Source: Isoetes taiwanensis
Taxonomy: Eukaryota; Streptophyta; Lycopodiopsida; Isoetales; Isoetaceae
Length of the DNA: 64,000 nt
Direction of reading: 5' to 3'
Assembly: GCA_021234155.1 (NCBI GenBank)
Contig: JAJEKV010000170.1
Coordinates: 248,001-312,000 of the forward strand
Shown here: positions 8,128-63,420 of the stretch, in pieces
How positions within the stretch are numbered: position 1 is the stretch's first letter
Layout: each line of letters opens with the position of its first letter
Program-made: the position numbers and the translations under genes
The notes under the pieces: model-generated
The model's input: the letters and a program-made list of their open reading frames with translations, nothing else
Database searches by the model: none
What the model was told of the DNA's origin: nothing

Positions 8128-8150
8128 GATTAATCAAGCTCTGATACCAA

Positions 8151-8763
8151 TGAAGATATTGATTGATTAAATATTCCAAACAATACAAGCTTATTAGCAC
8201 ATCAACTTCAAATGAATATGAGCATAGACCTTCGACTCAAATTATTATTTCAAACCATTGATATAACCATTGGGAGCACTTATTTACTTGAATAAGATGT
8301 AAAACACTGTAGCACATATATTCATGGAAGTTAGCAATGCCCCCGAGAGCCCAAGCACCACATTGTTCCAGCTGAGTTCCCTATCAACACCAGCATACTA
8401 TTGATCTAATCTCCCCTTCCATATATACTGCTAATTCGGCGGTGTCCTCAGCTCGGCAAGCCGATCTTCATGGCCTTACTATTTTATGCTCATCGCCAAC
8501 AATATCCCACATGCGTTTACTCATTTTCGGGATCAACCAAAATATCCCACATGCACTTCTTTTAGATTTAACATCGAACCATTGAACAACCAAATAGGTT
8601 AATATTGGTTGCAACTATGTTCTTCATCATATCTCACATGGTCATGAATGATCCTTCACCTTAGGTAGTTAAACCTTTTGGAGCTCAACCAGTTTCATCA
8701 TGATATCTGACTAGATCCCTTCAGGATCATAATATCTTAAAGATAACATGAACATTTTCTACA
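8151..8763 (-). repeat. Copia 5' LTR (613 bp)
   Basis: Bounded in minus orientation by TGTAGAAAATG and ATATCTTCA. The primer-binding site follows at 8138-8149 and the target duplication ATGTT lies at 8764-8768. Confidence 0.93.
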
Positions 8764-13609: not shown

Positions 13610-14345
13610 ATGCCTCACACTCATCATATTCACCAGAACGAGCACCTTAGTGCTGTGTATATTACCACACACCACACCACACCACACCCCACCACACACC
13701 ACACCATTCACCACACACCATACACCATACACCAAATGTGTGGTGGTAGCAAGGAGTTGTAGGACATTGTGCAGGGTGGTGGAGTGTGGTGGTGGTGGAG
13801 TGGTGGTGGTGGTGGTGAGTGGTGGTGGTGGTGGGTGTGGTGGTGTGGGTGGTGGTGGGGTGGTGGTGGTGGGGGCTGGTGGTGGTGGTGTGTGTGGTGG
13901 TGTGTGGTGGTATGATGTGGTGTGGTGGAGTGTGGTGGTGGGGGGTGTGGTGGTGTGTGGTGTGATGTGGTGGAGTGTGGTGGTGGTGGAGTGTGGTGGG
14001 GGGTGTGGTGGTGGTGGTGTGGTGTGGTGTTGTGGATTGTGGTGTGATGTGGTGTGGTGGAGTGTGGTGTGATGTGGCGTGGTGGAGTGTGGTGGAGGGG
14101 TGTGGTGTGGTACATGGTTGAGTGTGGTGGTGGTGGAGTGTGGTGGCGGGGTGTGGTGTGGGATATGGTGGAGGGGTGTGGTGTGGGATATGGTGGAGTG
14201 TGGTGGTAATGGACAATGCGGTGCATGTGGTGGTAATGTGGTGGTAATAGACAATGTGGTGCATGTGGTGGTAATGTGGTGGTCACAAAGATGTGGTGGT
14301 AGTCTATGGTGGTGGGATAGATGATGGGGTGTGGTGGGGTGAGGG
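13610..14345 (-). repeat. GTG/TGG-rich minisatellite, minus-strand counterpart of 765-1345
   Basis: About 590 bases of TGGTGG, GTGTGGTGG and GGAGTGTGG units are preceded at 13655-13735 by CAC-rich sequence. Read on the minus strand the order is CAC-rich repeat, then CTGCACAATGTCC and CTCCTTGCTACCACCACA, then GTG-rich sequence, as at 765-1345. It lies in an intron immediately upstream of the DDE-like exon that starts near 13554, in the same relation to its gene as the first copy. Long open frames here are repeat artefacts. Confidence 0.85.
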
Positions 14346-15511
14346 GGAAGAATAAATAAAATTGAATCCACACATATCATACATTAACATGCACACACCC
14401 ACATGACACCATAGACATAACGCACCCCACACCACACCACCACGACACCACACCACACATCACATCACATCACTTTTATCCTATTTCGTCTGACATAAAA
14501 AATCTGCCTAGCCTGCTCTCATAAACATTTCTGAAATTCGTACACCCTGATAATAATTACATTCCTCTTCTAATCATTAGAAAAGGAATTGGGTCCTAAA
14601 TCCTGTTCATGCGTCTGATTTTTGGCGTTTCATTCTCAAACGAACAAGTTCATTCAGGCAATGGTAGGGATATTCAGAGATCACTACAGCCTACCCCGGG
14701 TGAGCGAGGAGGGCCTTCGGCATATGTTAAATAGGGCTCGTGACCAATCTCTGAAGGTGGAAATGCCTAAATCCACCTTCTTTGCTGATTTCGAATCCAC
14801 CCTAAAGCCATACAGCAGACTGGATGCTGGGCCTTCAATGGCTATGTTTGGGGTCAGATTGACAGGAAGTGAGCTCAGAGACAAGGTCCATGACCTTATG
14901 TTACATGCTGCTACAGGCAGCCAGTTTATTTGTTATCTGTCACTTGCCCGCTCTGAGTCAGCAACAACGGGAATTACTGGCAGGGTTGCATTCTTACCAC
15001 CAGGGGATGCAGGAAGCACTGGAAAACCTGATCCTGTTGAATGACTGCAGAAAGCTTAGATGCTTTAGTGCAGAAAACAGTAGTTTTGGATGCACTAGAA
15101 GTCGAGCCAGTCATACCAGCATTTCCTGCTGCTTAGGAAATGCATGTAAATTTAGTTCTCGGGTACAGAGCTTTCAATGGAAAGCCAAATTTTGTAAAGC
15201 CAAATTTTATAAGATATGCTCCTTTTTTTAATATATTATACTTTCCAACAGAGCTGTGCTTGAATCTGACAAAAAATTGTCTTTATTCAACAAAAATTTG
15301 TACTTCTTAGGATCAGTTAGTTATCTGTCATTTTCAAATATTTTTAGACTACACAACCAGTAAAGGAATACTCAATTCTGTCATGTTCTAATATTCCAAA
15401 CATTAAATATTGCATTTCAGACTAGAGTCAACTACACACAATTCACATGCTACATACAGTACACCACAATCACTGTACAACACAATAACCACCACATGCA
15501 CCACCACACTA
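14346..15511. other. Unassigned stretch with a weak coding-like segment
   Basis: Simple CAC-rich tracts lie at 14410-14475 and 15470-15510. Between them, 14622-15044 on the plus strand is open for 140 codons. An overlapping frame (from 14950) continues with LSQQQRELLAGLHSYHQG and NLILLND, suggesting one decayed exon with a frameshift near 14940. I recognise no domain. The remainder (15060-15470) is AT-rich with no gene that I can support. Confidence 0.3.
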
Positions 15512-15939
15512 ATGCCACGGTTCTATTGCGACAGCAATAGAACCGACATTCCTTGGATGGGGACGTCCCTTTGTCACTCCTCCTATTTATTCAGCCTCTC
15601 TTCATTGTTCTATCATCGGCGTTCTCTTGAGCTAGATTTCTCCTTCTTCTCTATCCTATCAGTTTCCCTCACCCTCCCTCCCGTGATGGTTATTTGCATT
15701 TGATCGTGTTCGTTATTTCTTTTTCTTTCTATGTCCTTTAAATGTGCATTCTTTATGTCCTCAGCATGGCTTTGTAGCCTCTGAGGCGTACTTATTAGTT
15801 TACTCCGTGTGCGTGTCAATACATGTCAAGTGAAAATTTCCCGCCCGCCTCTCCCTTCTTCAGCTTGTTGTCATATCAAAGGTTTTTCATATAATTTTTT
15901 ATGGGTTCGTGTTCAGTCTATGGTGTGGCTTAGTGGCCT

Positions 15940-16215
15940 TCTATTCTTGTGACACTAGTGGTATTTTATTTATTCATTCATGTTTTCTCTCGGTGTGGCA
16001 TTGTAGCCTCTGAGTCAATATTTATTCATGTTTTCTCTCGGCCATTTGTTGACTCGAGATCATATTTATTCTTTTCTTTTTCGTGGTGGCTGTAGCCTCG
16101 GCGACACTAATCGGTTGTTTTTCCAGCGATGGTCATTCTGCGGGCCGGTTCCCGATTGGTCGTTTGTTGTTTTCTTTTCGGCGTGGCCCTGGAGCCTCCG
16201 AGTCTCCTTGCCTCT
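15940..16215 (+). repeat. Minisatellite of TCTCGGCGTGGC...GTAGCCTCCGAG units, unit 1
   Basis: Degenerate repeats of about 60-70 bases share the core TCTCGGYGTGGC followed by TGTAGCCTCYGAG. The same array at 33895-34125 in unit 3 is clearer, with at least four copies of the core. Confidence 0.65.
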
Positions 16216-16693
16216 GACATCTAACTCATTGGCGTGTTATTTTTTCTTTTCAGCCTTGACTTTGCGGGATTTTTTAAGGTCTTGTGGTTCTTAGAGTCGC
16301 GGGGATCGTGCTTCAACTATTTGCTTGGGTTTTCCTCAAAACCTAAGAAGGCATGATTCTTCTTTCCAATGAGGAGGCTTGATCAATGTGTCGTCTCACC
16401 TTTGCATCGACCAATTGGCGGAGTAAAACCATCTTTTATGTTGTATTCTTCAATTATCATCATGCTCTCGATGATTGTCTAGTTTGAACATTTAAAGTTC
16501 ACATTTTTGAACTTATCTATCCCTAGTGAGGGTTCCATTTGTACTCAATGTTTTACAAAGCTCAATGAGAACACCACTTCACTTCTCTAATTGCAGATTT
16601 CACTCTGACTGTGGCCCCTTGGGCTCAGGATTCGCCCCATGCCAGTTCATTCATCCGACATCATCCAAGAAGCCTCATCTAGATCTTTGCCAT

Positions 16694-27655: not shown

Positions 27656-27771
27656 GCCATCGGAAGTCTATATTCTTCTGCCATTTTATTTCTAGTCAGT
27701 ATTTGATGCCCAATATCCAACATATGGTAGCCCTGGTACAGTATATGCCTATCATAGGACCCATCCTAGGA

Positions 27772-30700
27772 ATGCCACGGTTCTATTGCGACAGCAATAG
27801 AACCGACAGCAATAGAACCGACATTCCTTGGATGGGGACGTCCCTTTGTCACTCCTCCTATTTATTCAACCTCTCTTCATTGTTCTATCATCGGCGTTCT
27901 CTTGAGCTAGATTTCTCCTTCTTCTCTATCCTATCAGTTTCTCTACCCTATTCCTATTCTATTTTGTTTTACATTAGCTTCTCCTATCGTGTCTACCTAT
28001 TACATTTGAGCATCTAATCATTTGTTACAATCTTGGCTATTTAGCGCCCTAGGCCCGGATTAAGAATATGAGGAAGAAACTTCGTCGATCTTGTTTGCCA
28101 AGATTCGATGAGGCTATTCGTTCTTCAACATATGGGCGATTTTTCTAAGATAAGTTGCTATTCTCTTTTTTATCTTTGTGGCATGGATTTTTGAAGCGAT
28201 TTGGGGCTTTAGTTTTCGTGGATTGATTTTTTCTTGGCTGTGGCCATTCCGTTGCTGCCTAAAACCCCTTTTTGCCTTTTTCTTTCTGCCCGGGCCGCCT
28301 ACCCTCTTTGGTTTAGAGTGATTGAACCGATTGATAGATAAACCCTTTGTTACGTATGCCATGTTTCTTGCAAAGCAACTAAATCCCTCGATTTTTTGGT
28401 AGGTCTTCTTTGGCTTGGGTTGATTCCATCCTTTGTTTTTGTTTGTGGTTGTCTTGGATTAGAGCCTATGCGGTATTCGCTTAAGAATGCATGCATCGGA
28501 TGCTTTCAAAATAGCGGGGTTCCGGCTGTTCATAGTTTTGATGCGTCTGCATGATGGAGCTATGATGTCGATCGCGATGGCATGACATGATGGTTGGAGA
28601 TCGCCATACACGAGAAGGTTTGTCTTTTATCGATTAAAATTTTTATGTTTTCTTCTTACGCCTCGATTTGAGCTTGGGTCAATAGAATAGTCTTATTCGT
28701 CGGGATTGAATTTCGCCCTTGGCTTGGGGGATCGATATGGAAGCTTGCATTGAATTTGAGTTGTCTCTCGGTCTTGCTATATTTTATATTTTATCCATCG
28801 TTGTTATGATTTTGCCTTCCACGGTGTAACGTGGCCTCCTAAAGATTCTATTCTACTAGTTTCTAATTGCAGATTTCACTCGGCGGGGCCCCTTGGGCTC
28901 GTGGATTAAGCCCCATGCCGGTTCATTCATCCGACATCATCCAAGAAGCCTCATCTAGATCTTTGCCATCGGAAGTCTATATTCTTCTGCCATTTTATTT
29001 CTAGTCAGTATTTGATGCCCAATATCCAACATATGGTAGCCCTTGTACAGATTTGCGCTGTTAATGTCTGGTCATGGCTCTTCATTCTTGGACTCTTCTT
29101 TCTTCTGGCTGTTTTTTTGGTGGCTGCAGCCATACAATCATCTCTTGTGTAAGTCTGGAGCTCGGGTTCTAATTATGTGGACTCGAGCTCGTTCGATCCT
29201 CTAAGGAGGTCGGCTCTGAGTTTCGTCTTCTACCACAGGTTCGTTCTCTCCCTGCACATCATGCAGAGCATAAATAGTGTTCCGGAATTGGCTTTTAGAT
29301 ATGACATTTGAGTATTTCTTTCATAGTAATGCTGCTGACTTGTTGGTGGAGATGCATGGTTTTTTCCCATTGTGTTAGAAGTTCGAATCCTTGCACTTGT
29401 TTTTTTTTTTTTTCTCGTTGCTTCCAAAGACATTGCCATTTTGTTCAAATCCTTATTTTTGTCCTTTTGTAGTATCTTTAAGAATCTTTGTGGTTGCCTT
29501 TTTTGGTTGTTCAATCCATGCATTTGCCTCCTTTTTGTTTGTTTAAACATTTTTTCTTCTCCTCTCGGGTCGCTCGTATAGATCTGCATTTCCATTAGAT
29601 TGCTTCTTTTATGCATGTTCTTTCTCTCATGAGAATGAAATCGAGTTTTGTTTTTCCATAGATCCTTGTTTGTCCTTGTCGCATTAAACATGACATGCAT
29701 ACATTTTCCTTTTCTCTTGGAAATTCATAGGCTTATATATCCCTTAAATGTGCTTTCATCATCTCCTTATGCAAAGCCGTTATATGTAGATTTTGTACAA
29801 TTGACATTGCATTGGATCATGATTTTGTACAATTGACATTGCATTGGATCATTATGCATGGGTTTTTTGTCCCCTTGTCATCAGCATGGGTGTTTATGGC
29901 TATGCACTTTGCATGTTAGTAGGCATCTTGATGCTTGTGTGGCGCTTGTTCTATTTGGCTAGATGCCTAGCGAGGGGTGGTGCATGTATGCTCTTTGCAA
30001 TGTGGCATGCATCCTGGCACTGATTCAAAATTTGTACATTCGTCCGTTTGTCTTTTTTAGTCATGTTAGCTTCTTTTTTGATTGTCATGCTTATTCCCTT
30101 TGTTCCGGGGTTGTTCTATTTGCTCCTACAATCTTGTTTTTAGCTCCATCTGTTTTACATTGTTTTACACCTTATACCACGAACATTGTCAGAGATTATT
30201 CTGGACTCGTGAGTCATGTTATACCAAGTAAGTACATTTGCCCCATGGGTCCCATCGTCATTATACGTGCATATGCATGCTTTCATTTCTTGTAGGCTCA
30301 CTTTCTCCTATCTAGTTGGTCCCTGTGCATGTTTATTTCCAATTTTCATGCTCATGTTAATGCATTTATGTTGGGTACACATACATGCATATTTTCATTT
30401 CCATAAGTTAGTCTCTCCTATTTACTTTGTCTATTTATTCATTTCCGTATCTATGCATGGGTCCCATATATGTGTGTATGCATAATGAGGCGATTTTCTG
30501 ACATTTTTTCATCTAGTTCCCTTGTGTCTTTGTTAGATTCCGCACTTTATTTCCTTGTCATTTTTGTGGATAAATTAGGCTGAGGTTTGGCATGTTTAAT
30601 CTCATTTTGACTAGATCGTAGTATAGGATAGGTTTTCATCTTCTCTAGAGTTCTTATCGAGTTTGTGCTTTTAGCTTAGGGTGTTGATCCACAAAGTGCT

Positions 30701-33430
30701 AAGAGAGTGCTTAGGCATTATTACAAGTGGCATTGCGCATGCTTGTATGGGTTTTGGGATCTCTATGCCATCATTTTTGCTATAGTTAGTTACTTGTATT
30801 TTTGATGAATGTCCTGTTCTACATTTTTGTCAACCGTTGGTTCATGATCAATCATCCACATTTCATCACAAACAATCTCGATCATGTTTTAATTTTGATT
30901 TAGATTTTTTGGCTATATGATTGTCCTCTATTCGTTGACTCGTACTCCTTTTGAGTTTGATCATACCCAGGTTCGTCATGGATGACGTTCACATTCGATA
31001 TTTTCATCTCGTCAATTCTTGGGCTCTCTATAGTTTCGTTTAGTCTCTTTTTGGTCTTCAACATGGTATGTTTGTTCCATTTTTTGGTCATATACATCTG
31101 GGTGATGATGTTTGTATTACATGGTTTCTTTTTTGTCGTAGGTTTGTTTCAATGTCTTTGTTCCTTTTTTGGTCCTTTTGCTTGATTTGTTCCTTTTCAC
31201 TTCGTTAAGCCATTTGTTCCATTGGCTCTTGTAATTCATTTAGTATTTTGCTTCGTGTCAATTTTTGCTTCATGCAGGTAGGTTATTCCTTTGTGCCTTT
31301 GCCCATTTGTCCCATGTTGGTAGCTCTTTGTTCTAGTTGATTCACTATAGACATCTGCTGCAGCTATCCCTTTACGGATGCCTTTTTGCTCTACAATGTA
31401 CTATTTGCCTCTTAATGTCATTATTCCAGTTACTTTGTATTCCTATGAGCTTATTTAGTCCGTCCTTTTGTTTCTCGATGTGATTTTTCCGGTCGCTTCA
31501 ATAGTTTCAATTTGTTTTTTAGTTTGCTTGCTCTTTTAATTCTATTAGTTCTATTTTGCCCATGTACTTTGTGCCTTTAATTCCATTGTTCTGCTTCATT
31601 AGTACTTTGTGAGTGATTTTTATATTTTTAAGTGCTCCTTAGAATTATCACCTGAGCATTCTTTGCTCTTTTACTCCGGTTTCTATGTTTCTATGTTCTT
31701 TACATTGGTCGACTTGATATAATTTATAATTCATGTGCATCTTTTGGCATTTATGTGCACCTTTGCTCTATTTTCTTCTTTTGTTAGAATTCCTCAACTC
31801 GCTCTAGCTGTCTTGTTTGCCTCGTCCCTCATCCAGTTTTGACACCCTCGTGGAATTTTCAAGGGTCTTCTAGTATCTGGTACTCTAATGTCTAGTTCTT
31901 CCTTTAATATTTTGGTCGTTTTATTTTTCTTAGGCTCTCATTTTCGCTACATTGTTGCTTTGTTTGCTTTCTCTTGTGTGCTCTTACTATTTTATTGCGC
32001 TTCTGCATTGCATATCATTTTCTGTGGTATGTCATTTGTTTGGTTTCTCTTTTTCTACTTTGTAATTTTAGTGTTATCCATTTTTGCATTGCGAAGATTC
32101 CCTTGCTCCTCTTGTCCCGTTTCTTTCGTTATTCGTTTCTCCTTTGTTGGACATTTTTCCAGTAGTTTCTTTAGTTTTATGCTCTAGGTCTTTCAATCAT
32201 GTTTGTTCACCTTCTCCCTAGTGTCCTTTGAGGTCGTTGATTCCTTGGTCTCGTTCCTTGTTCCAGTATTCTGGCACTCCTCTGCCCCTTCTGCCTTGTT
32301 CGTTCCAATGTTCTATTACCTTGGTTGTCCCTTTTCTCCATTTATCATTTTCTGCACTATATTGTTTTGCTGTTCTGGCAATTCCTTACTTGCTCCTCTC
32401 TTCTCGTTCTTTTACTTGCTCCACATTTCCCTTCAGCTTCTTATCATACACTGTTTCATTTTGTTGCTTTGACCTTTGTAGGCTTGTTTCTCCCTTTGGC
32501 TTTTACATTTCATGTGCTTCGTGTCACCTCCTTTTCCATAGCCTTTTGTGTCCTTCTGGCCTTTTAGACTCTGTATCTTATTCGCGCTGCCCTTAGTTTA
32601 CCATCTTGACCTCGGCTCGACTGCTTTTTCTCTAGGTTTCTCCACTAAGCTGCTTAGTATTCTTGTTCTAGTTTTTCGTCTTTCTTTGAACTTGCTTGTT
32701 ATATTGGTCCATCCATTCGCCATTGCTTCATTAGTCCCGGTTTGTTAGCCCCATTCGCTCATTCCATTATTCCTAGTTTCCCCAGTAGTTTGTGCTTTCG
32801 AGTCCGTGGTTTCAGTTTGTCTATAGATTTTGACGATTCTAGGTGGTTGTCACTCGAGAGCTTGTCTACGGGTATTTTTGTGTCCCTTCTTTGCTCCTTT
32901 TTGTACATCCTGTTATTTTTGCATTCTTAGGTTTTAGGTAGAATCATTGATTCCTTTTCTCCGTCCGCTTTTCCTGCTGAGTTTTGTCCCCGTCCACCTT
33001 CTCCACTTTTTCTTGTCCACTCTTTTTTATTTTTGGCCTTTTACTTTGCTTCACTTGCATGGTTTCTTAGTCGCCTTGTTTCCCATGCCACTATCCGTTC
33101 TGGCTCCCACTTACCTGGCTCCTTTCTGGCGTATTATGTCCTTCCTTTCTTTGTGTTCTTCCTCACTCGTCATTCCTCCCATCGGCTCTTTCGATGTTCT
33201 GTCTATTCTTATGCCTTTGATGTTGCCATTTTCAGATCCATTTTGTTCCGCTGTCTCATCAGCCTTTTCCGTGCATTCTTTTCCAGTGTCCCTTGTAGAC
33301 TCGTTTCTCCTTTTCTTTATACTATATTTCTCTTTAGCTTCTCTTCTTTTCAGTCTCCATGCTGAGTAGTTTTGAGTTTTGTTCCTCTTCTATCGGCCAG
33401 TATATGCCTATCATAGGACCCATCCTAGGA
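27772..33430 (-). mobile_element. Array unit 2 (longest version), keeps the empty gypsy site
   Basis: Shares its first about 230 bases and 28860-29047 with unit 1, and its last 33 bases (33398-33430) with units 1 and 3. At 28960-29047 it reads uninterrupted through ATCTTTGCCATCGGAAGTC, the point where unit 1 carries the gypsy element. The segment 29050-33397 is unique, T-rich (TTTG and TTCTT tracts) and has no convincing gene. Its short open frames are hydrophobic artefacts of T-richness. It resembles long intron or untranslated sequence. Confidence 0.65.
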
Positions 33431-34526
33431 ATGCCACGGTTCTATTGCGACAGCAATAGAACCGACATTCCTTGGATGGGGACGTCCCTTTGTCACTCCT
33501 CCTATTTATTCAGCCTCTCTTCATTGTTCTATCATCTCTCTTGAGCTAGATTTCTCCTTCTTCCCTATCAGTTTCCCTCACCCTCCCTCCAGTGATGGTT
33601 ATTTGCATTTGATCGTGTTCGTTATTTCTTTTTCTTTCTATGTCCTTTAAATGTGCATTCTTTATGTCCTCAGCATGGCTTTGTAGCCTCTGAGGCGTAC
33701 TTATTAGTTTACTCCGTGTGCGTGTCAATACATGTCAAGTGAAAATTTCCCGCCCGCCTCTCCCTTCTTCAGCTTGTTGTCATATCAAAGGTTTTTCATA
33801 TAATTTTTTATGGGTTCGTGTTCAGTCTATGGTGTGGCTTAGTGGCCTTCTATTCTTGTGACACTAGTGGTATTTTATTTATTCATTCATGTTTTCTCTC
33901 GGTGTGGCATTGTAGCCTCTGAGTCAATATTTATTCATGTTTTCTCTCGGCGTGGCGCTGTTGACTCCGAGATCATATTTATTCTTTTTCTCGGCGTGGC
34001 GCTGTAGCCTCCGAGGCAGCACTAATCGGTTGTTTTTTCCCGCGATGGTCATTCTGCGGACGGTTCCCGATTGGTCGGCTGTTGTTTCTTTCTCGGCGTG
34101 GCCCTGGAGCCTCCGAGTCTCCTTGCCTACGGCATCTAACTCATTGACGTGTTATTTTTTCTTTCAGCCTTGACTTTGCAGGATTTTTTAAGGTCTTGTG
34201 GTTGCCGAGTGCGGGGGATCGTGCTTCAACTATTTGCTTGGGTTTTCCTCAAAAACCTAAGAAGGCGCAGTTCTTCTTTCCAATGAGGAGCAGTCACCAG
34301 GTCGTCTCACCTTTGCATCGACCAATTGGCGGAGTAAAACCATCTTTTATGTTGTATTCTTCAGTATCATCATGCTCTCGATGATTGTCTAGTTTCGGAG
34401 CATTTGAAGTTCACATTTTTGAACTTACCTATCCCTAGTGAGGGTTCCATTTGTACTCAATGTTTTACAAAGCTCAATGAGAACACCACTTCACAGTATA
34501 TGCCTATCATAGGACCCATCCTAGGA
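33431..34526 (-). mobile_element. Array unit 3 (shortest version)
   Basis: Matches unit 1 from the hairpin end through the minisatellite (33895-34125) to CACCACTTCA. It then joins directly to the shared 33-bp end at 34494-34526, lacking the ATTGCAGATTTC...GGTAGCCC part. It has the clearest copy of the terminal hairpin: stem 33437-33448 with 33453-33464. Confidence 0.7.
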
Positions 34527-51683: not shown

Positions 51684-51707
51684 TAGAGTGAAGAGGATGC
51701 AAGCAAT

Positions 51708-53468
51708 GTGGCATCCACTTCTGGTATGAGAGAAGATACGCCCGAGGGTGATTGTATATCCAGTGATGAGGAAGAGGAATTGCATGAAAGAGATGATTTG
51801 CAGCTTGAGAGAGAGGGTCCAGCATTGCGTGAAGATGTGGATGAGGATGAATTGCCAGGAGCTGAGCCCACAATTGCCACATGGACCCTTGGTGAGGATT
51901 CTTTACCTCATAATTTGCTGCATAAGCTTCCTTCTTATGACCTTGAGAGAGGACCAGCTACAAGAACAAAAAGAATGTCTCCATTTCAGCTGTTCACATG
52001 CTTCTTCTCACATACATTGATGTCTCAGATCTGTCAAGAGACTAATAGGTATGCAGATGAAGCGAGAAATAAAGCAAGACAAAAATTTCAGAATATTAGG
52101 AGCTGGCCTGCTGTCGATGTGAGTACCATGTTCAGGTTTTTGGGTCTGATTGTGGCCATGGCACTAAATCCATACAATAAAGTTCAATCTTATTGGAAAT
52201 CAGGTGAAGTTGGAGCAGTGAATTGGCCAAACTTTGGCAGATTTATGTCCCTCAAAAGAGCTCAACAGATTAAAAGATTCTTTCACTTGAGAGACAATCA
52301 TTTGCATCCTCATGATAAGAATACAAGAGAGTATAGAATTTTCCAAGTTCAGAATGTTGAGAAAGAATGGAACAAAAAGTTTATTGACTTGTATACACCA
52401 GGTAAACAGGTGATTGTAGATGAGAGTATTATTCCATCGAGAAATGCCATGAATCCCTTACGTATTTACAATCCAAAGAAGCCTCATAAGTTTGGTATTC
52501 AGCTTTGGACTTTATGTGATTCGGCTTCTGGATATTGTCTACAATTTGAGGTCTATGACAAGCTCAAACGAGAAGAGGGATTGGAATTTCATGCAGTATC
52601 AGCCCTAGTGAAGAAGCTTCCACCAGGTCATAATGTCTTTTTTGATCGTTATTTTACAAGTGTCAAGCTGCTCCAATGGTTATCAAAGAGAAAGCAAGGT
52701 GGTACAGGTACTATCAACCCTAATAAGACCAAAATGTTTCCCATAAAGCTGCTGAAATTTGATGGAAAAAAGAAAGAGGTCCCAAAGGGGACTCATAAAT
52801 TTGCATTTAGTAAAGAAACCGGCATTGTCGTTAGTGCATGGCAGGATAAAGAAGCAATTCTGTTTGCTTCTAATGTGCACGGTGTAGATATGTCTACGGT
52901 CATGCGTTTGGTGGAGAGAGGCAACCGTCAAGAGGTTGCTGCTCCAGAGATTGCAGTATCATACAATGAACACAAGGCCGGGTGTGATGTGCACAACAAA
53001 ATGTGCTTGGCTTCAAACTATAGCTTGGAGAGGGAGCAAGTTTCTTGGAAATGGTGGCATTCTCTCTTTTGGGGAATGCTCGATTTTCTTTTGACTAATG
53101 CTTACATTATTTATAAGCATTGGAATCCAGAAGTAACACATTATGATTTTCTAACTCTATTACAGAAAGAATTGATAGCTAATGACCTTGATGGAGCCAA
53201 TTTGACAAGGGAGAACTATTTGCACACCACAAGGCATGCTACTTACTATAAATCTGAGGGGCAGCATAGAACATGTGTAGTATGTGCTGCCAATAGGATT
53301 ATAGAAAAAGAAGCTGGTGTTGTGCATGAGACCGCTCGTGCACGAAGAACAAAGTTTTATTGTCCAATATGTAAGGTTTATATTTGCCCAGGAGCATGTG
53401 ATGCTTTATACCATTCAGAGATGTGGAGTCCCCTGCAAGAGATGCCAAGAAAGCGGACAATGCCATGA
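51708..53468 (+). CDS. piggyBac transposase (DDE_Tnp_1_7), 586 aa open
   Basis: The open frame has an acidic N-terminus, then MSPFQLFTCFFSHTLMSQI and FMSLKRAQQIKRFFHLRD, typical of the piggyBac family. Catalytic aspartates lie in VIVDESIIPSRN (about residue 238), NVFFDRYFTS (about 312) and KAGCDVHNKM (about 427); all three are present. The extra Asp found three residues after the third in the moth element is Asn here. The C-terminus has CVVCAANR, FYCPICKVYICPGAC and YHSEM, a cross-brace cysteine-rich domain used to bind the transposon ends. The enzyme would excise and insert the element at TTAA. The frame extends upstream past the ATG to a TAA TAG pair, so the original protein was longer. Confidence 0.93.
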   Translation: MASTSGMREDTPEGDCISSDEEEELHERDDLQLEREGPALREDVDEDELPGAEPTIATWTLGEDSLPHNLLHKLPSYDLERGPATRTKRMSPFQLFTCFFSHTLMSQICQETNRYADEARNKARQKFQNIRSWPAVDVSTMFRFLGLIVAMALNPYNKVQSYWKSGEVGAVNWPNFGRFMSLKRAQQIKRFFHLRDNHLHPHDKNTREYRIFQVQNVEKEWNKKFIDLYTPGKQVIVDESIIPSRNAMNPLRIYNPKKPHKFGIQLWTLCDSASGYCLQFEVYDKLKREEGLEFHAVSALVKKLPPGHNVFFDRYFTSVKLLQWLSKRKQGGTGTINPNKTKMFPIKLLKFDGKKKEVPKGTHKFAFSKETGIVVSAWQDKEAILFASNVHGVDMSTVMRLVERGNRQEVAAPEIAVSYNEHKAGCDVHNKMCLASNYSLEREQVSWKWWHSLFWGMLDFLLTNAYIIYKHWNPEVTHYDFLTLLQKELIANDLDGANLTRENYLHTTRHATYYKSEGQHRTCVVCAANRIIEKEAGVVHETARARRTKFYCPICKVYICPGACDALYHSEMWSPLQEMPRKRTMP

Positions 53469-53796
53469 GGAAGTCTGAAAGAGCAAGCAGGTAAGTGTAA
53501 TTTCTGATATACTTTCTTGTTTGAATGTCTTTTATAGTTTATAACTAACACAGGCACATGTATGACTCTTTTGTTTGTTTAGGATGTGTGGCAGACCTTG
53601 CACTGAAATTACAATTGCATGATAGCATGCAGGTTGCTCGTTCATTTTGCAAAGGTAAACCAACCTTCTTGCTATTGTATTTCTATCATGTTTCAAAACT
53701 TAGCATGCTTTCCTTTCATTGCAGGTTTAGATTGCAAACAAGGCTGTATTTTTGGACTCTAAATGCAATCTGATTTCTCACTCTCTATCCACTTTG
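53469..53796 (+). other. piggyBac 3' region with introns and the first copy of a tandem unit
   Basis: After the stop come a donor-like GCAG|GTAAGTG, an acceptor region and short exon-like pieces (GTTGCTCGTTCATTTTGCAAAG). The segment 53660-53796 recurs at 61140-61279 with about 90% identity by eye (GCATGCTTTCCTTTCATTGC in both), so a unit of about 160 bases was tandemly repeated before the retroelements arrived. Confidence 0.6.
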
Positions 53797-54959
53797 TGTA
53801 ATGAACAAGGAACAAAAGATGCACCATGAAGAGAGCACCAGTTCCTAAACTACATTTCTTATTCCAAGTTAACAAAAATGTACAAAATTGTGGCCTTTTG
53901 TCCATGTGAAAAGACATGAACCAAAAGACACGTAGAAAAATACCGTACAAATACATGTATAAATGTATATGTCTTTTTATCCTAAGGTTCCTTACATTCT
54001 CTCTGACTTAAAAAAGACAATGTCCTCATTGTCAGTCCATGTCTTCAAGTCCGAAGAGTTCCCAAGAGTTCGTCTAGAATCTCAGGATAATCATCTTTCT
54101 CGTATAGCATGTGCTTAGAGAAAGTCTTCCTTCCCATATAGGGTCTTCAACATGATTAAGTCTTCAACTCCTTCATCGTGTGAGGGGTTGTCTTGAATCA
54201 TAGAACCTTATGTGTTTACTTAAATTTCATATGGCCAATCTTGTGTCCAAGGTTAATTTTAAAGTAATTTTTGGACTATTAGTGAATAAATATCACCAAA
54301 CCTTCCCCCTCTCATATAAGACGCCAAGCATCTTAGAGAGATTACACAACTTCATATCTAAAAGTTGTTCTTAACTTAGTCCTTAGAGTAGTAGAAATTT
54401 CACTACCCAGTCGACCATCTCATCATGAGACTCGCCAACTAATTTCATAGACTAACTATAGACAGTTAGTTAGAACATCGTTGCCAAAGCGATGGCTAGT
54501 GTGAATTTCTTGTGAGAAGGTTCTTAATGTCATGTCATCATTGTCATATAACTTAGGTTCCATATTTTCATGAATACTTCTTACTTTTAGAGTGTTGAAA
54601 TATTAAGACTCCGAGTCTCAACACATCAGACAACTCTAGAATTGATCTTTAAAAGATCATGTTCATATGTGGCTAACATGATGTCAATCCACAAATTCTT
54701 GTATCTTAATAAAACACAATCTAAATTTCATTCTTAGATTGTATAAAAGTAAACCATATCCATATCCTTAAAAGAACCTTGGGTAAATGTCATCTTGCCC
54801 AAATGTCCTCATATGCTTTGCAAATTGTTTTGCAAAAGCAAACGTTCTCAGCCTTAACACATTTCTATGGTCTTTGAAGGAACATAGATTCTTGACCATG
54901 ACAACTGCCATGGGTTTCAATTTACATTATTACATGGACCACTTAAGTTCAAAGAGTAT

Positions 54960-55280
54960 GGAGATATCAAGACACCAAGCCTTCTTGAACTTCGTCGTAA
55001 AAGTCCCTCTCGAGACTTGTCTTAATGGAACTTTATCATCAAAATCCCTTTTCGAACTTGTCTTATGGATTTTAAAAATCCCATAGTGCTAAAAAAACAT
55101 GTGTGCTTGTTTTGTGGTCCTATATTCTTGCTCTTAAAATTCCCTCTCGAATCTTGTCTTAGTGGATTAAAATAAAGCCCCTAGTGCTAATACATATGCT
55201 CGTGTTTCAAGTGAGAATCGAACCCTCACCATTTGAAAACAAAACTCTTAGAAATGCCTCTTAACCATCTTAATAAAAAT
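54960..55280. repeat. Internal repeats and a tRNA-like segment in the LTR element
   Basis: The phrase CCCTCTCGARWCTTGTCTTA and a following AGTGCTAA-type segment repeat near 55005, 55045 and 55140. On the minus strand at 55207-55275 there is GATGGTTAAGAGGC (A-box-like) and GGTTCGATTCTCAC (B-box) with an imperfect T arm. It is probably a captured tRNA-related sequence, not a working gene. Confidence 0.4.
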
Positions 55281-55940
55281 GTTTATTAGCACTTTATAGA
55301 TTCGGTTTTTAAAAAAAGCAAATTTTCTTTTATCTTTTTATTTTCTTATTTTCTTACCTTTTCTTTTATGGAAGCGTCTGTTGGCGTCGACGGATTTCTT
55401 CCTTCAAACCCTAATCTGGGTTCATCGAATCTGCTGCCGGAATCATGTTTTTCAATTGCTGTGGTAAGAGCCGAGTCATGGACCCGTCTGCAAATCTTAA
55501 GATGCTTGGGCTAATTCGTATGTAAATATTTCTTTCCTCCAGTTCTTATTCCATTCAAAGATGGATGAATCTTCTGCCGTTCTTTTCTATCAACAATGGC
55601 AGATTCCTCTGCCCTATTATTCTTGCATTTATTGTTCTTAAATATGCTTCTTATTTCTTTTGTCTCTCAATAGAAAGATTCTTCAGTTCGTGATTAATCT
55701 TTGTTCTTGCAGGGAAGCAAATTTCTTCCTAAATCTTCCTGTTTTTGCGGCAGGTTGGGTTCCCTCCTGTTCATATATTTCTTAAACATGCTATCCCGTT
55801 CTAGGGCCTGAATCTTGTCACAAATACAGATTTCTAATTCTTATTTTCTTATGATTGTTTCCATTACTTATTATTTTCCTTGAAGGTTTCTTACGGTTTT
55901 GTGGATATGGCCACAAATCTTTGTGTGCACGACCACACAG

Positions 55941-56163
55941 TAAAACACACACTTGACGTGGCACGCTATCTCACCACCCAACCACGAGCCCTCAGCTAAC
56001 ACAGCTGCCCCAGAGCTCTCCCCCGAGCTACTATATAGCATGCACGCCCCTTTGGTCCATCTTTGGACCAAAGCCCTCTTTGGACCATAAGCCCCCTTTT
56101 GGACTAAAGGCCCTCTTTTGGCCTAAAAGCCATCTTTGGACTCCACGTCCTTAGCATATAGCA
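55941..56163 (-). repeat. Nested gypsy 3' LTR
   Basis: Contains repeated TTTGGACCA and TTTGGACT words. Starts TGCTATATGC on the minus strand and ends GTGTGTTTTA. Confidence 0.92.
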
Positions 56164-56622
56164 TTCCCCCCTTGACATTGCAAAGGTCCCTGCCGCAAAA
56201 GGGTATCTAAATACCTTTAGCCATCCGAGCATAATCCTTCCTTGGCCCTCGCTTAGGACCTGGGCTTAGTAGAAGCCTGCTTGGACTTCCTCTTGTCCCT
56301 CGGCTTCCTTTGCTTTCCGATCTTTATATTCTCTAAGAATATCCAGGATAAGCTTCTAAAACATTGCCACGCACCCATGAAGCGTCCTCCAAAGGTTTGT
56401 GAGCGAACTTAACCAAAGATTGTCTTGAACCACTAGTGGATTTATCCGCCAAAATTGTTTCAGGCTCTAGAACTTCGAATCATCAATCAATTTCGCTCGG
56501 TTAACCTCCCAAGTTGAGGTAACTCCTTACCATGATAAGCCTTTAGGAATGAAACATTCACTACATCATGCATTTTCCAACCTTGAGGCAATCTTAATTG
56601 ATATGCATTCTCATTGACCACT

Positions 56623-57817
56623 TTAATAACTTGAAATGGTCCATGGAAACGGTGCCAACTTAAGATCCTTCTTGCGCCGAGATCTTTCTTTAAAGTGGCC
56701 TTTATGGATCCTCATCCATACCCAATCTCCTTCCTTAAAAACCATTGGTTGCCGCAACTTAGATGATTTATTTGCAAAAGATGCTTGAGCATCTCGAATA
56801 CGAGCTTGAAGCAAGTCTATGAGATCCTTATGCTCAATAACCAAATCATCGCCCGGTGGAACATCTTCACACACTTTCGAAAGAGGGGCTCCGCATGGTG
56901 ACCATAGACCGCCTCGAAAAGGAGTCATCTTTATGGTAGACCGATAGGTATTATTATACACAAATTCAGCAATAGGCAAATACTCTTCCCAATGACCTTG
57001 ATGTTCATTGACAAACCCCCTTAAGATGGAACAAATAACTTTATTGACCACCTCGGATTGTCCATCAGTTTCTGGGTGAAAAGCAGTGGAGAACCTCAAC
57101 TCTGTCCCCAATTGCATAAATAATGCCTTCCAGAATTTACTAGTAAACTTTGTATCACGATCGGATACAATAATCTTTGGCAAACCATGTAGCCTAAATA
57201 TCTCTTTGATAAAGAGCGTAGCCGCACTATAAGCCGTCAACTTATCCGAACAAGGAATAAAATGAGCGTGCTTAGTTAAACAATCAACAAGTGTCCAAAT
57301 GACAGTGTTCTTGCGAGAACTGGGAGGAAGACCAACAATAAAATCCATAGTGATCTGTTCCCACTTTGCCTCCGGAATAGGCAAGGATAAAGGAACACCA
57401 TGAGGTTTCTTGTTCGCTTTCTTTATCCGTTGACAAGTAACACAATGCCGAATATGAACCAAAACATCTCTCCATAATCCAGGCCAAATAAAGTATGGTT
57501 CAAGCTTTGCCAAAGTTGCCCCACGCCACGATGACCCGCATGAGGGTGCATCATGGACTTCTTTAAGAATAAGTGACCGAAAGTTCCAAGACAATGCATA
57601 GCTTTGGACCTTTATACAAGAACCCATTAACGATCTTATATCCATATGCATTGCCACTTTGAGCTAACAACCAAATATCTTTATAATCAAGGTCAGTGGC
57701 ATACAATGGCTTCATTTCCTCCAAATGGTTGGATTGTGCTATAGAAAGAGAACAAAGCGCATAGCGTCTACTTAAAGCATCGGCTACAACATTCTCTTTA
57801 CCGGGACGATAATCCAT
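56623..57817 (-). pseudogene. Nested gypsy integrase
   Basis: A 344-codon open frame (56623-57657) is preceded by the RNase H end at 57563-57817 (MDYRPGKENVVADALSRR). The zinc site ends in HCVTCQRIKK. The core has MDFIVGLPPSSRKN, IVSDRDTKFTSKFWKALF and ETDGQSEVVNK, giving D, D and E. C-terminal to it, KEGDWVWMRI and KLAPFPWTI match the usual tail. The frames overlap around 57563-57657, showing one frameshift. The protein would integrate the cDNA. Confidence 0.92.
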
Positions 57818-57824
57818 CGAGAAA

Positions 57825-58839
57825 TCATATTAACGCATAAAAGCAACCCATTTCAACCGCCTTTAGATAATGTTTTTCGTGAAACAATGTGCCTAATGCT
57901 TTGGTGGTCAGGTCAAAATATGAACTGTTGACCCTATAAGATAGTGTCGCCACACTTTCAAAGCATGAATGTTTTAAATTCCTTATCATAAACACTATAT
58001 CTACTTTCCGTGTCGAAAACTTTCGACTTTCATAAGCAATAGGATGACCATCTCGCAAGATCAAAACCGCGCCCAAAGCCACACCACTTGCATCAACACA
58101 TAACAAGAAAGGTAGACCAAACTTTGGCAAGCGAGCAGGGAGGATTAACCATGGCATCCTTTAAAACTTGGAAAGCAAACCGATGATTAAAATTCCATTG
58201 GAAAGGAACATCTTTTCAGTAGCAACAAATATAAATCTGAAGCTAAACGAGCAAAATTCTCAGACAAACTTCCTATAATAAGCGATAAGCCCAAAAGGAA
58301 CGCATAATGCAAAGAATCAAGTAGGTACAGGGCCAATCCACAATTGCTTGTACCTTACTGGGATCAACTTTAAGACCCTCAGCGCAAACAATATGACCCA
58401 AATATTCAATTTCCGATTGGAAAAATATACTTTTCTTAGGATTAAGAGTAATAGACTCGCCCTTAACCGACGGAAAACCTCTCGCAAAATGCAAGTAATG
58501 ATCTTCCTGGGACTTACTAAAACTAATATGTCATCAAAGAACACGACAACATAAACACCATGCACATCTTCAAATATTAGCCCCATTAGCCTCATAAAGA
58601 AGTCGGGCGATTTGTAAGTCCAAATGGCATGACTAAAAACTCATAATGTCAAAAGTTGTCCTAAACGCAGTCTTGTGAACATCTTCGGTAGCAACCTTAA
58701 GTTGCCAATACCCCGACTTAAGATCAAGACGGCTAAAAACTGTGGCACCTTGGAGTTGATCAAACAAATCATCCGCCCTTGGTATAGGAAACCGATTCTT
58801 TATGGTTATCTTATTCAAAGCGCGATAATCTATACACAT
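57825..58839 (-). pseudogene. Nested gypsy RT and RNase H (frameshifted)
   Basis: RT pieces are [20 protein letters not shown] and [15 protein letters not shown] (58633-58839), FFDDILVLVS (catalytic DD, 58317-58595), and EIEYLGHIVCAEGLKVDPSK (58273-58494). RNase H follows with FLLCVDASGVALGAVL and HPIAYESRKFS (57825-58157). At least three frame changes separate these. Confidence 0.92.
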
Positions 58840-59230
58840 GCGCCGGGAATTATCTTTTTCTTAACCAACAAGACGGGGAGCACCAAAAGGTGAAGAACTA
58901 TGGCGGATCAATCCAACTTGAAGCAACTCATCAATCGGGCGCCTAATCTCAACTTGTTGGCCATGCATTCTCAGATAAGGAGCTTGATTAGGAGGTGCTT
59001 TCCGTGAAGAAGATCAATCCGTGGTCCTCCAAACGTTGGGGTGGCAAAGTTTGTGGAATTTCATTTGAAAAGACATCATCAAAATAATGCAAAAAGATTT
59101 TTGACGCTCATTTAATGGAGATACTTCTAACTTAGAATAAAACCACCAAATACACAAAATGAGTTTTCATTGCCAAACGTTTAAAAGCGTACAATGTAAA
59201 CCGTGGGAATAGGGGATACAATATCATCCT

Positions 59231-60404
59231 TCACAAACTTGAAGGTCGTTTTACCCCTTCCAAGGATAACATAACAATACCCGCTTTCCAATCTATAAGA
59301 GGATTAATAGCCTTATGCCATGGCATGCCTAGAATAATATCCATACCTCCAAGGTCGGAAACCATGAAAGAACGTTTTACGATATATCCACGCAATTGAA
59401 ATTCAACATCCTTGACCATAAATGAAGAAGGCGGAGGGGCAACATTCAAGAAAGAGAAGCTAATTCTACATCACTTGATAAAGGAATAGAAGTTAAGTTG
59501 AGTTCTTTCACCAAGCGGCAGAAATAAAATCAAACTCCGCCCCGGATCGAATAGGACATGTACTTTTTGATCTTGAATAGTAGCCCAAAATCGTAAGAGA
59601 CTACTATTCTCAACGAGAATCCATATCAGATTTTTCCGGACCGTAGCCACCTTCTTCCCTTTTCCATCTCATGACGAAGCTACTTTCTTACTTTTATCTT
59701 CTTTCTTAGTTCATTATCGCAGCGTCTGTAATGCGGCCGTTTGAGCGCCCGGACCACGGAAGCGAGCCCATTGATTTATCCCGAAAACCACTGGCCGCTT
59801 TCATAGAAACTTTGAGGCCACGTTGAGCATTAATGGCGATGGGGCCAAACCTTCCTCCTCTACTTTCTCGCCATCTTCTGAGCTCACCAAAAGAAAGATT
59901 GGCAACTTGCGGGTCGAGCACCCCACCCAGCGATGCACCCCACCCATGAGTTTTTTCGGACTTTCGGCATCATTTTTACTAAGCTGAAGTCCTTTCTTTA
60001 AAACTTCGTGCGTGAAGGATCGAACGGTTTCCATGTTTTGTTGGGTCAACTTATTCCATTCGCGATAAGATCAAAGGGCTCCCAATTATGACCCAAAAAC
60101 GATTTTTGATTTGCTTTTCAAATTCATAAAGGTAACAATAGGTTGATCGACCGGCCTGGTTCTTACGGATATCCGACCACCGGTCCTTAGCAACCCCATC
60201 CGGATGGCCTTTCGGCAAAATATGGCGAGTGTCCTCGTCATCCTTAGTCTTAGCAAAATATGAATTCAAATCCCGAAGCCACGCGAATAATTCATCCGCA
60301 TCACTAGTGGCAGCGGAATACTTTTTGAATTCAATTTTGACATTGGCACCCGTTTTGATGCCACTACGTGGGCGCCTGACTTTTACGCAGAAGCGCCCTG
60401 GCAT
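59231..60404 (-). pseudogene. Nested gypsy gag and protease (frameshifted)
   Basis: Gag-like frames lie at 60051-60404 (FAWLRDLNSYFAKTKDDED) and 59706-60049. The protease end is at 59231-59449, with MVSDLGGMDIILGMPW, the typical gypsy protease C-terminal motif (D-I-I-L-G-M). The DTG active-site segment is not clear. No zinc knuckle is seen in frame. Confidence 0.75.
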
Positions 60405-60573
60405 TTCAGAGAATCAATTCTTGCGACTCCGAATTCGAGGCCTCGGCGGTGCAAGTTTTTCTCTCATGGCGAATTATCATGCTCTAACTCAAAAAAGTTT
60501 TTCCTTGAGCTCTTCATCTTCCAAGTTAACATTGGCGGGGAACAGGCCATCGAAACTTGTTGCTCGATACCAC

Positions 60574-60796
60574 TAAAAACACACTTGGCGTGGGCGCGCT
60601 ATCTCACCACCCAACCACGAGCCCTCAGCTAACACAGCTGCCCCAGAGCTCTCCCCCGAGCTACTATATAGCATGCACGCCCCTTTGGTCCATCTTTGGA
60701 CCAAAGCCCTCTTTGGACCATAAGCCCCCTTTTGGACTAAAGGCCCTCTTTTGGCCTAAAAGCCATCTTTGGACTCCACGTCCTTAGCATATAGCA
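60574..60796 (-). repeat. Nested gypsy 5' LTR
   Basis: Matches 55941-56163 over its whole length with few changes and is followed on the minus strand by the primer-binding site. Confidence 0.92.
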
Positions 60797-61419
60797 CACA
60801 GACATCACCAGAATTGATTATGCCTTTTTCTTGCTTCTTTTAAAAATAATTCCTTAAAATTTCTTCTTTTCCAGTTTCCTTCTTCTTCGTGAAATGCCCT
60901 TAGATCTTCATTGGCTCTGATACCATATGTAATGAACAAGGAACAAAAGATGCACCATGAAGAGAGCACCAGTTCCTAAACTACATTTCTTATTCCAAGT
61001 TAACAAAAATGTACAAAATTGTGGCCTTTTGTCCATGTGAAAAGACATGAACCAAAAGACACGTAGAAAAATACCGTACAAATACATGTATAAATGTATA
61101 TGTCTTTTTATCCTAAGGTTCCTTACAGTAGGCAACTCAAGTCATTCTTTTTTGCTGTTGTATTTCTGTCATGCTTCAAAAATTAGCATGCTTTCCTTTC
61201 ATTGCAGGTTTAGATTGCCAATAAGGCTAAATTTTCAGACTCTATATGCAATCTGATTTTTCACTCTCTATCCACTTTGTTTTTTTTTTTTTTGTTGAAG
61301 GACGACAGTCTATTATTCATGAAAAAATCAAGAAACATACAAGAGGTCTGTGAAATGGGACTCAAAACCTAGAGGACTACGAAGTCCCCTAAGCAAAACC
61401 ACCCATACACAGTACATAA

Positions 61420-63045
61420 TCAAATATCTTGTACCATCTTGAGGCGTTTAGTAGCCTCATCACAATCAGCATGTTCTACCACATCAATACAATCATTACT
61501 AGACATCAGATTATCGAACTCACGAGAGTATGATGGCCTTACGGGGGGCCTCACGGCATACCTTCTTTGACCTCTTCCTTGCACGAGACCCCATCCTGGC
61601 AACCTTTTTCCAAGTGGCATGTTGCCATAATGCTCTATTACTCGGACTATTAGGACAATCATCCATAGCTATCTTAGGCGATCGGAGAAGAAGAAGTGTC
61701 ACCTTGAGGAATAAAGGGAACAATAGGTGCATGTGAAGGTACAAATGCAGGAACAATAGGCGTATACTTAGGTGCTAGAGACAACGTCGTTGGAGCTAGA
61801 CGTATAGCAACTTCACTCCTAGAAACATCACCTTGCGAAGTAAAAGGAACAATAGATCGCGAGAGGATGGTGCTAAAGCGGTGCCATTGGGAACGGATGT
61901 AAATCAACTTCCATAGCCGAGGAGTGTAAAACAACCTGGAATAGGTTGATCATGAGTAGGTGCAGAATTAACACCATGAACTTGAACCGAGATAAAGCGT
62001 AAGGTTTACGAAGCTTGAGATACACGAGGGGGCCTATGAAAGCCGACAAAAGCCTCTTTATCGAGAAATAAGCGAGCCAATTCGGTCCATTCAAAAGCTT
62101 AAGATCCAATTTCTTATACCAAGGACCACTTTTAACCACTATACACTCTGGTAAAGGCGAATCCACTGGCATAGAAACACAAATCCTTGGGCCATTCATG
62201 ATAGAATGTGAAATATGAACCCCAAGTCCAGATGCAATTTCGATAAGAACCCGATGAGCCATTAAATGCGGAGGAAGATTTGATATTGAAAACCAAGCAA
62301 TGCATCTTTAAAGCACGAACCATACACGGTGTAAAGCCGGGGAATAATATCTTGGTACATTATATACTCCCCACCAATAGGATCAATCCCTCTAGACACC
62401 AAAGACTCCACTGTATCACTATTATCAAACATAATCAGGACAAAGTTTTTTGCCAATAACTTGATGGATTGAAAAGGAGAAAGTTGAAGACGCCGCAAAA
62501 GACGAGATAACCACACACGAAATCGTGAGAAATCTAAATAACCTCCAGAAAAATAGCCAAGGACTGCACAGGAAGATAAGTTCTCAAGACACTTAAGATC
62601 GCATGATGGTCCACCTCAACCGGAGGAATACCGAAGCTTGCACAAATGATTTGACAATCGACCGATAAAATATGTCATCGAAGGTAATTGTTGTTGTTGA
62701 GCTCTTTCGAGCTTTCAATGTATCTAAAATTGATGATAACTCTTCCTTACTCCCCTCAGACAACACCTGCAAAGCAGCTGACACTCGAGCTTTTCTAGAG
62801 GCACTAGGTACATCTTTACAGATCCATTCACTAAATCTTTGATATGAGACTTTTGCAAATGTAATCGGATGATGTCCGTGCACCAAAGATGAGCTTGAGG
62901 TCGAGAAGGCGGGCACAAACCTTGCAGAGGAGGAAAAGCTCCTTCTAGATCTATTGCATGGGATGCAGAAACCACCATCTCTCAAAAAGTGGCCGAAATT
63001 GAAGAGGCCCAATCCGGCCCCTAAGCTGTAAGAAAAAGCTAACAA
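61420..63045 (-). pseudogene. LINE ORF1 (DUF4283-like), frameshifted
   Basis: Coding pieces are 62593-63045 (150 codons), 62262-62516, 61873-62262 and 61420-61662. The 61873-62262 piece has VLIEIASGLGVHISHSIMNG, RICVSMPVDSPLPECIVV and KSGPWYKKLDLKLL, the pattern of the DUF4283 RNA-binding ORF1 of plant LINEs. A CCHC knuckle is not visible. After it comes a P/T/A-rich tail (APTTLSLAPKYTPIVPAF). The 62262-62516 piece includes NFVLIMFDNSDTVESLVSRG, the usual N-terminal part of the same domain. Frame changes lie near 62550, 62262 and 61870. Plant LINE ORF1 proteins bind the element RNA. Confidence 0.7.
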
Positions 63046-63199
63046 AAGTGATACTGGTAGAAAGCCCTTAGAACAAGCTATCCAACGAGCTAAAGATCAT
63101 TACAAACAGAGCCCGGATCCATAAGTTACACGAAAAAGCATCAGCAGCCCTGGGCGCCAGAAGCATGGGCGCCCAGCCTTTTCACCAAGTGTGGTGGTT

Positions 63200-63317
63200 G
63201 GGTGCAGCACCAGGACTTCCCGGGAGGTCACCCATCCCAGTACTATTCCGGCCCAAGCGCGCTTAACTTCGGAGTTCTGATGGGATCCGGTGTGGTAGCG
63301 CTGGTATGACCGCACCA
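63200..63317 (-). rRNA. 5S rRNA-derived sequence (about 118 bp) in the LINE-like head
   Basis: On the minus strand it runs from GTGCGGTCATACCAGCGCTA to GGTGCTGCACCC and follows plant 5S rRNA almost end to end. The internal promoter is kept: AAGTTAAGCGCGCTTG (A box region) and CTGGGATGGGTGACCTCC (C box). Differences from the usual plant sequence are mostly in stems. A lone copy inside a mobile element, not in a tandem 5S array, suggests a promoter role rather than a ribosomal gene. Confidence 0.85.
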
Positions 63318-63321
63318 CAAA

Positions 63322-63394
63322 CGCATTAGACGTGGGTCGAACATGTGACCTTATGCTTAGGAAAGAGATGCTCTATCCACTGAGCTACAAACTC
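63322..63394 (-). tRNA. tRNA-Arg(CCT)-like sequence in the LINE-like head
   Basis: On the minus strand: TAGCTCAGTGGATAGAGC (D arm and A box), TTCCTAA (anticodon loop, CCT), and GTTCGACCC (T loop and B box). The anticodon and D arms follow plant tRNA-Arg(CCT), but the T stem has a mismatch and the acceptor ends do not pair, so it is not expected to work as a tRNA. It lies four bases before the 5S sequence. Confidence 0.75.
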
Positions 63395-63420
63395 ATAAGG
63401 CAACTCTCTATCCACTTTGT

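Follow-up and report, generated by a model that had tools for sequence, protein, structure and literature searches.

One retroposed insertion of 2.1 kb occupies positions 63402-61281 on the minus strand of the window, the term used here for the whole 64-kb stretch of DNA that was analysed. The insertion begins with a tRNA-like sequence joined to a 5S rRNA-like sequence, continues into a body resembling the ORF1 region of a LINE and ends in a run of A. In the preferred explanation, a composite LINE derivative that was itself non-autonomous was retroposed here; this reading is given roughly even odds (a probability of about 0.5). The tRNA/5S-headed structure itself is real and unusual, and is known from a single inserted, dead copy.

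Integration at the target site

The unit is bracketed by two exact copies of the 17-mer CAAAGTGGATAGAGAGT (5' copy at 63403..63419 and 3' copy at 61263..61279, minus strand), a repeat whose mean chance occurrence was 0.00 in 100 shuffles. The 3' end carries a tail of 13-14 A (61280..61293, minus strand), the last of which may belong to the target duplication: the duplication is thus 17 bp long and exact, or 18 bp when one tail A is counted in.

The same 17-mer occurs a third time in the window, at 53780-53796, owing to an old tandem duplication that covers approximately 152 bp of the target. The first unit of this tandem (63441-63403, continuing at 61279) contains the LINE-like insert and the second unit (61150-61128, continuing at 53796) contains an LTR retrotransposon, so that each target copy serves as the empty site of the other. 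Over their longest stretch the two tandem units differ at 13/132 positions, and over the other stretch at 3/23. The second unit supplies the empty-site paralogue of the LINE insertion point (53666..53796, minus strand): positions 53666-53797 and 61149-61280 are identical at 119 of 132 positions and the paralogue runs uninterrupted across the insertion point, which confirms a single insertion with a 17-bp target duplication. The third 17-mer was considered as an argument against a real target duplication, and this objection was dropped once the copy was traced to the old tandem duplication.

The long target duplication, the A tail and the empty-site paralogue together mark the unit as a target-primed insertion of LINE type. 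Both the 17-bp duplication and the poly(A) tail had been reported in the first-pass annotation of this DNA, and both hold. The nick site in the target (CT/ACAAA) is a poor match to the L1 endonuclease consensus, and this counts against the LINE-derivative reading.

Other elements of the window

The LTR retrotransposon in the second target copy (53797-61127, minus strand) has identical 200-bp LTRs (53797-53996 and 60928-61127), an integrase at 56623-57663 and the primer-site-like motif TGGTATCAGAGC. The element lacks the usual 5-bp target duplication though its empty site is known; its flanks are CCTAC and CAAAG. Inside the element, positions 55938-56163 and 60571-60796 are near-identical direct repeats lying 4.6 kb apart (97.8% in an alignment of 227 columns), and each contains a tandem repeat with a 19-bp period.

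An uninterrupted frame of 592 codons at 51690-53468 (plus strand) encodes a piggyBac-like transposase (DDE_Tnp_1_7, E 6e-58); the best protein match (40% identity) was from the fern Adiantum, which was named in 10/15 matches. Judged by these matches, the host would be a fern or one of its relatives. A probable Copia-type element lies at 3208-8763 (minus strand); it is bounded by 583-bp repeats (98.97%), matches a copia-type gag at 7444-8133 and contains further long frames. For the 205-codon open frame at 12538-13152 (minus strand), the highest-scoring Pfam family was Actin at 17.0 bits, which is below the cut-off and not convincing. Long CCA/GGT-rich low-complexity arrays at 809-1315 and 13679-14187 are mutually inverted copies at 77%, and a 1.08-kb direct repeat of 93% identity was found at 15511-16582 and 33430-34494, with partial copies near 27739-27949.

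The tRNA-like and 5S rRNA-like head

All features of the head lie on the minus strand. A leader of 8 nt (63395..63402) stands between the target duplication and the start of the tRNA-like part. This part (63322..63394) resembles tRNA-Arg(CCT), has no CCA end and matched RF00005 with 31.4 bits, the gathering score being 29 (cmscan; E 7e-4 for 3.5 kb and 0.014 for the whole window). It was considered degenerate because ARAGORN called no tRNA (0) in the 64-kb window. Against a provisional Arabidopsis tRNA-Arg(CCT) reference, 60/73 positions were identical (approximately 18% divergence) and 6 of the 14 acceptor-stem positions were changed. The box A region is identical to this reference tRNA and box B has two edge mismatches; strict patterns for box A and for box B found no match in the tRNA-like part, and a loose box B pattern matched.

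The spacer TTTG (63318..63321) separates the tRNA-like part from a full-length 5S rRNA-like part (63199..63317), which matched RF00001 over model positions 1-120 (110.5 bits, E 1e-24) and was identical at 101/119 positions to a provisional Arabidopsis 5S rRNA reference. In the 5S-like part the box A and box C motifs matched, and the pattern for the intermediate element found no match. A G+C-rich hairpin with a 9-bp stem lies just 3' of the 5S-like part (63150..63176); it was read from the sequence and the same stem appeared in the fold of the head (278 nt), whose overall stability was ordinary (z -0.94).

The matches to RF00005 and RF00001 are the only ones at gathering level in the 64-kb window, and they lie 4 nt apart on the same strand in a unit that starts 8 nt before the tRNA-like part. 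The joined tRNA and 5S rRNA that had been described at the 5' end are thereby borne out. An intact joined tRNA-5S host gene was rejected as the identity of the head: ARAGORN called none, and the tRNA-like part has 13/73 mismatches to the reference tRNA, 6 of them in the acceptor stem.

The head and the LINE-like body could in principle have come together in separate events, by a tRNA-5S SINE or a pair of pseudogenes falling by chance at the end of a LINE copy. Heads of such a type can stand alone in SINEs. The outer target duplication, however, encloses head and LINE together, and no inner duplication accompanies it: the longest repeat flanking the head alone is 7 nt, a length of at least 7 being reached in 165/500 shuffles. 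An insertion of the head with its own target duplication, which the first-pass annotation had named as an outcome that would refute its reading, is rejected, since the inner repeat is no longer than chance, and the account by separate events, which is largely refuted, is given very little credence.

Body and 3' end

Between 61423 and 62978 (61423..62978, minus strand), the unit looks like a decayed LINE ORF1 region, DUF4283-like and spread over several frames, a label that is not secure. The match to DUF4283 (PF14111) reached 17.2 bits (E 0.0044) in one frame and 19.3 bits (E 0.00096) with the frames joined, both below the Pfam cut-off of 27.2. The second match spans a frame change and draws on two frames of a joined 497-residue reading, in which stop-free pieces of three frames were put together at joins picked by eye with LINE ORF1 in mind. 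In the same Pfam scans, four other pieces of the element matched unrelated families below threshold (E 0.04-0.13), and an unrelated frame of the window matched Actin at E 0.0023.

Protein relatives of the ORF1-like region were searched in a database that does include fern proteins, and none were found: of the 7996 candidates that were scored none reached E<=1, and of 2677 none reached E<=10. A codon-usage path through the sense strand gave a weak coding signal (frames 0/1/0, score 9.7 at the middle switch setting), for which the controls were 0.0 on the antisense strand and 0.45 as the best of 100 shuffles. This signal was treated as supportive only, because 25/124 segments of the window, including segments with training frames, score at least 25.6.

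The longest stop-free stretch in the unit is 167 codons. The DUF4283-like ORF1 of the first-pass annotation is thus retained as a sub-threshold similarity and given up as an open frame; the proposal that the RNA carries a protein gene fails for this copy, in which ORF1 is broken. The reported absence of a reverse transcriptase agrees with the present results: the sense strand, to which the scan was confined, contains 17 stop-free pieces that are 35 aa or longer, and none of the 12 scanned (all except 5 of 35-38 aa) matched a reverse transcriptase family; the 2.1-kb insert has no room for ORF2.

Another reading makes this copy an internally deleted member, without ORF2, of an autonomous LINE family of the host whose elements would normally begin with the tRNA-5S head. 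The ORF1-like region does pass directly into a LINE-like 3' end, and internally deleted LINE derivatives are known, such as the SIDE elements (PMC6740152). No ORF2-bearing relative was seen, however, and an autonomous family of this kind is considered quite improbable.

The 3' untranslated region (61294..61420, minus strand) is predicted to form a nested stem that terminates in a 12-bp hairpin. In plants, one L1 lineage, together with its SINEs, is described as having a hairpin near the 3' end, with a conserved CGAG after the stem and a UCU loop (PMC3747384); the loop in this unit is UCGU. The predicted energy is -38.8 kcal/mol (z -4.30, 0/200 shuffles as stable), for a stretch that was one of two folded in all and was picked after a palindromic run had been spotted there.

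Transcription of the unit

The insert starts 15 nt upstream of the tRNA box A region. Genes of tRNA type transcribed by RNA polymerase III (pol III) start at such a distance from box A, so the insert begins where transcription from a promoter of this type would be expected to begin. The TTTG spacer and the lack of CCA fit an unprocessed tRNA-5S precursor and not a mature tRNA. By itself, the head may constitute a short pol III unit.

The first-pass annotation had gone further, proposing a family whose whole RNA, including ORF1, is made from stacked internal pol III promoters. This model is favoured by the absence of changes in the tRNA box A region relative to the reference tRNA, by the box A and box C motifs of the 5S-like part and by the start of the insert at the expected pol III distance; the first 265 nt of the unit also contain no run of at least 4 T, which is not notable as shuffles averaged 0.36. 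Against it stands a T5 run at nt 266 (63133..63137, minus strand), which is the first run of at least 4 T in the unit, lies 61 nt beyond the Rfam end of the 5S-like part and may act as a pol III terminator. From this T5 onward, 18 runs of at least 4 T occur in 1820 nt, no fewer than in shuffled sequence (mean 17.4), and the runs downstream of the 5S-like part include one T6 before the tail. Because the T5 follows the 5S-like part and T runs then occur in chance number, it is unlikely, judged from the sequence, that pol III made the whole RNA as a single transcript spanning the unit and including ORF1. Elements transcribed by pol III are moreover described as limited in length (SINEs 100-700 bp, Helenus up to 1263 bp), a shortness that Kojima ties to the weak processivity of pol III (PMC10886601). 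With ORF1 broken as well, the model of stacked promoters driving the whole unit is judged improbable.

Age of the head and origin of the unit

The two target copies show 0/17 differences, and the tRNA-like part shows 13/73 differences from the reference tRNA. With one shared substitution rate since insertion, the tail probabilities of these two counts are 0.030 and 0.028, meeting near 10% divergence; if only 9 of the tRNA differences post-date capture, the probabilities rise to 0.06 and 0.13 at 8% divergence, a better fit to a single rate. Perfect target repeats beside a tRNA diverged by approximately 18% suggest that the head was probably degenerate already at insertion. The comparison argues weakly for an inherited head over a freshly captured one, and was given modest weight because the reference tRNA was provisional and the target is short and without CpG.

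For the composite LINE derivative that is the preferred reading, the following history is proposed. The first step would be an ancestral fusion, made as RNA or as cDNA, that joined a tRNA-5S precursor transcribed by pol III to the 5' part of a LINE RNA. The composite would then have been copied again, and the present insert would be a later copy of this source element with its head degenerate beforehand, a step that rests on the rate argument with its provisional reference tRNA and short CpG-free target duplication. The RNA start of the copied element may have been set by the tRNA-type promoter, or may reproduce it. The full-length template RNA probably escaped pol III termination (transcription by polymerase II or read-through), and mobilisation would have occurred in trans, with an L1-type reverse transcriptase recognising the A tail, the 3' hairpin or both. 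The non-autonomous LINE originally described thus survives in its single target-primed insertion, its joined head and its apparent ORF1-type remnant without reverse transcriptase; the ORF1 gene and the pol III transcription of the whole unit are not supported for this copy.

The same structure could have arisen as a one-off chimera, founding no family, if during a single target-primed insertion a LINE reverse transcriptase had jumped from a truncated or ORF1-only LINE RNA to an RNA containing both tRNA and 5S, or to each in turn with 5S first, or if the RNAs had been ligated beforehand. Only one copy was seen here, and chimeras of mammalian LINE-1 with 5S rRNA (27) and tRNA (21) have been catalogued, with target duplications in 20/27 of the 5S cases and in 8/8 of the tRNA cases checked (PMC13174262). 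In that catalogue, however, truncation and antisense orientation are typical of the 5S parts, and most of the tRNAs are antisense halves, whereas both parts of this unit are full length and in sense orientation. The tRNA-like part also lacks CCA, a second jump would be required unless tRNA and 5S were joined beforehand, and the perfect target repeats contrast with the diverged tRNA (with the provisional reference and short CpG-free target noted above). A one-off origin is therefore regarded as rather unlikely, though well short of improbable.

A bolder extension of the composite reading is that the host lineage, putatively a fern, carries such retroposons in many copies, as a family whose founder was a dicistronic tRNA-Arg/5S precursor made by pol III and joined to the ORF1 region of a LINE. 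This extension is offered tentatively, at less than even odds. If true, the family would be LINE-derived with a head of two pol III units, and linked tRNA-5S transcription units would exist or have existed in plants.

Comparison with known systems

Patterns taken from the unit were run against collections of viral contigs and prokaryote genomes, from which the window's own genome was possibly left out, so that absences say little: the tRNA-5S junction pattern had 0 matches in viral contigs, a land-plant-like 5S pattern had 0 in viral contigs and 0 in prokaryote genome contigs, and a piece of ORF1 had 3 pattern matches in viral contigs, none of which was confirmed. No plant element with a tRNA-5S-ORF1 structure was named among the matches listed from open-licence PMC texts (titles and abstract starts), which is not proof that none has been published.

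Half-LINE (ORF1-only) elements such as HAL1 are LINE derivatives that have the ORF1 region and lack ORF2; they are not known to have a small-RNA head. The Twin SINE of Culex resembles the unit in that a joined pol III precursor, a dimeric tRNA, has been proposed as the founder of a retroposon; it is a tRNA-tRNA element of a mosquito, and this unit joins tRNA to 5S.

Membership among LTR elements and TRIMs (Cassandra/Helenus/Ajax, TRIMp3) was rejected, there being no terminal repeats within the insert and a duplication of 17 bp instead of 4-5 bp. The TRIMs Cassandra, Helenus and Ajax do share with the unit a 5S- or tRNA-derived pol III promoter within a retrotransposon (PMC10886601). They are, however, LTR elements, for which the same source describes primer-binding sites and 4-5 bp duplications in Helenus and Ajax, whereas in this unit the duplication is 17 bp long and the 3' end is an A tail. 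SINEs are 100-700 bp long according to that source, and the unit, at 2.1 kb and with an ORF1-like body, falls outside this range.

In SINE3 and HaSE3 a 5S-derived head precedes a body and tail that a LINE recognises, and in HaSE3 the 5S head is joined to a body and tail that come from a tRNA-headed SINE (PMC3272025). Both are known from insects, and unlike in this unit, neither a tRNA directly upstream of the 5S nor a LINE ORF1 body is described for them in that source. LINEs of RTE type formed SINEs with tRNA or 5S rRNA (Kojima 2018, as cited in PMC13174262). These resemble the unit in that a LINE RNA was fused to a tRNA or 5S and the product was then propagated; they are described with one or the other, whereas here tRNA and 5S occur together, upstream of an ORF1-like body.

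A tRNA immediately beside a 5S gene is found in yeasts: tRNA-5S genes of Trichomonascus are joined at 1-3 bp (PMC13130702), compared with 4 nt in this unit, and Yarrowia also has joined tRNA-5S genes (Acker et al. 2008, as cited in PMC13130702). The yeast examples are host genes, whereas this unit is a mobile element. A heritable tRNA-5S-headed LINE derivative, if confirmed as such, would hint at co-transcription of tRNA and 5S in plants.

The mammalian small-RNA/LINE-1 chimeras share with the unit a 5S or tRNA joined to a LINE copy inside one target duplication (PMC13174262). As catalogued there they are typically truncated and antisense, whereas this unit joins two full-length sense parts and has a tRNA leader. 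Small-RNA heads of SINEs and TRIMs, like accidental small-RNA/LINE chimeras in mammals, are already known; a heritable LINE derivative with a joined tRNA-5S 5' end, if true, would represent a step between an accidental chimera and a new retroposon family.
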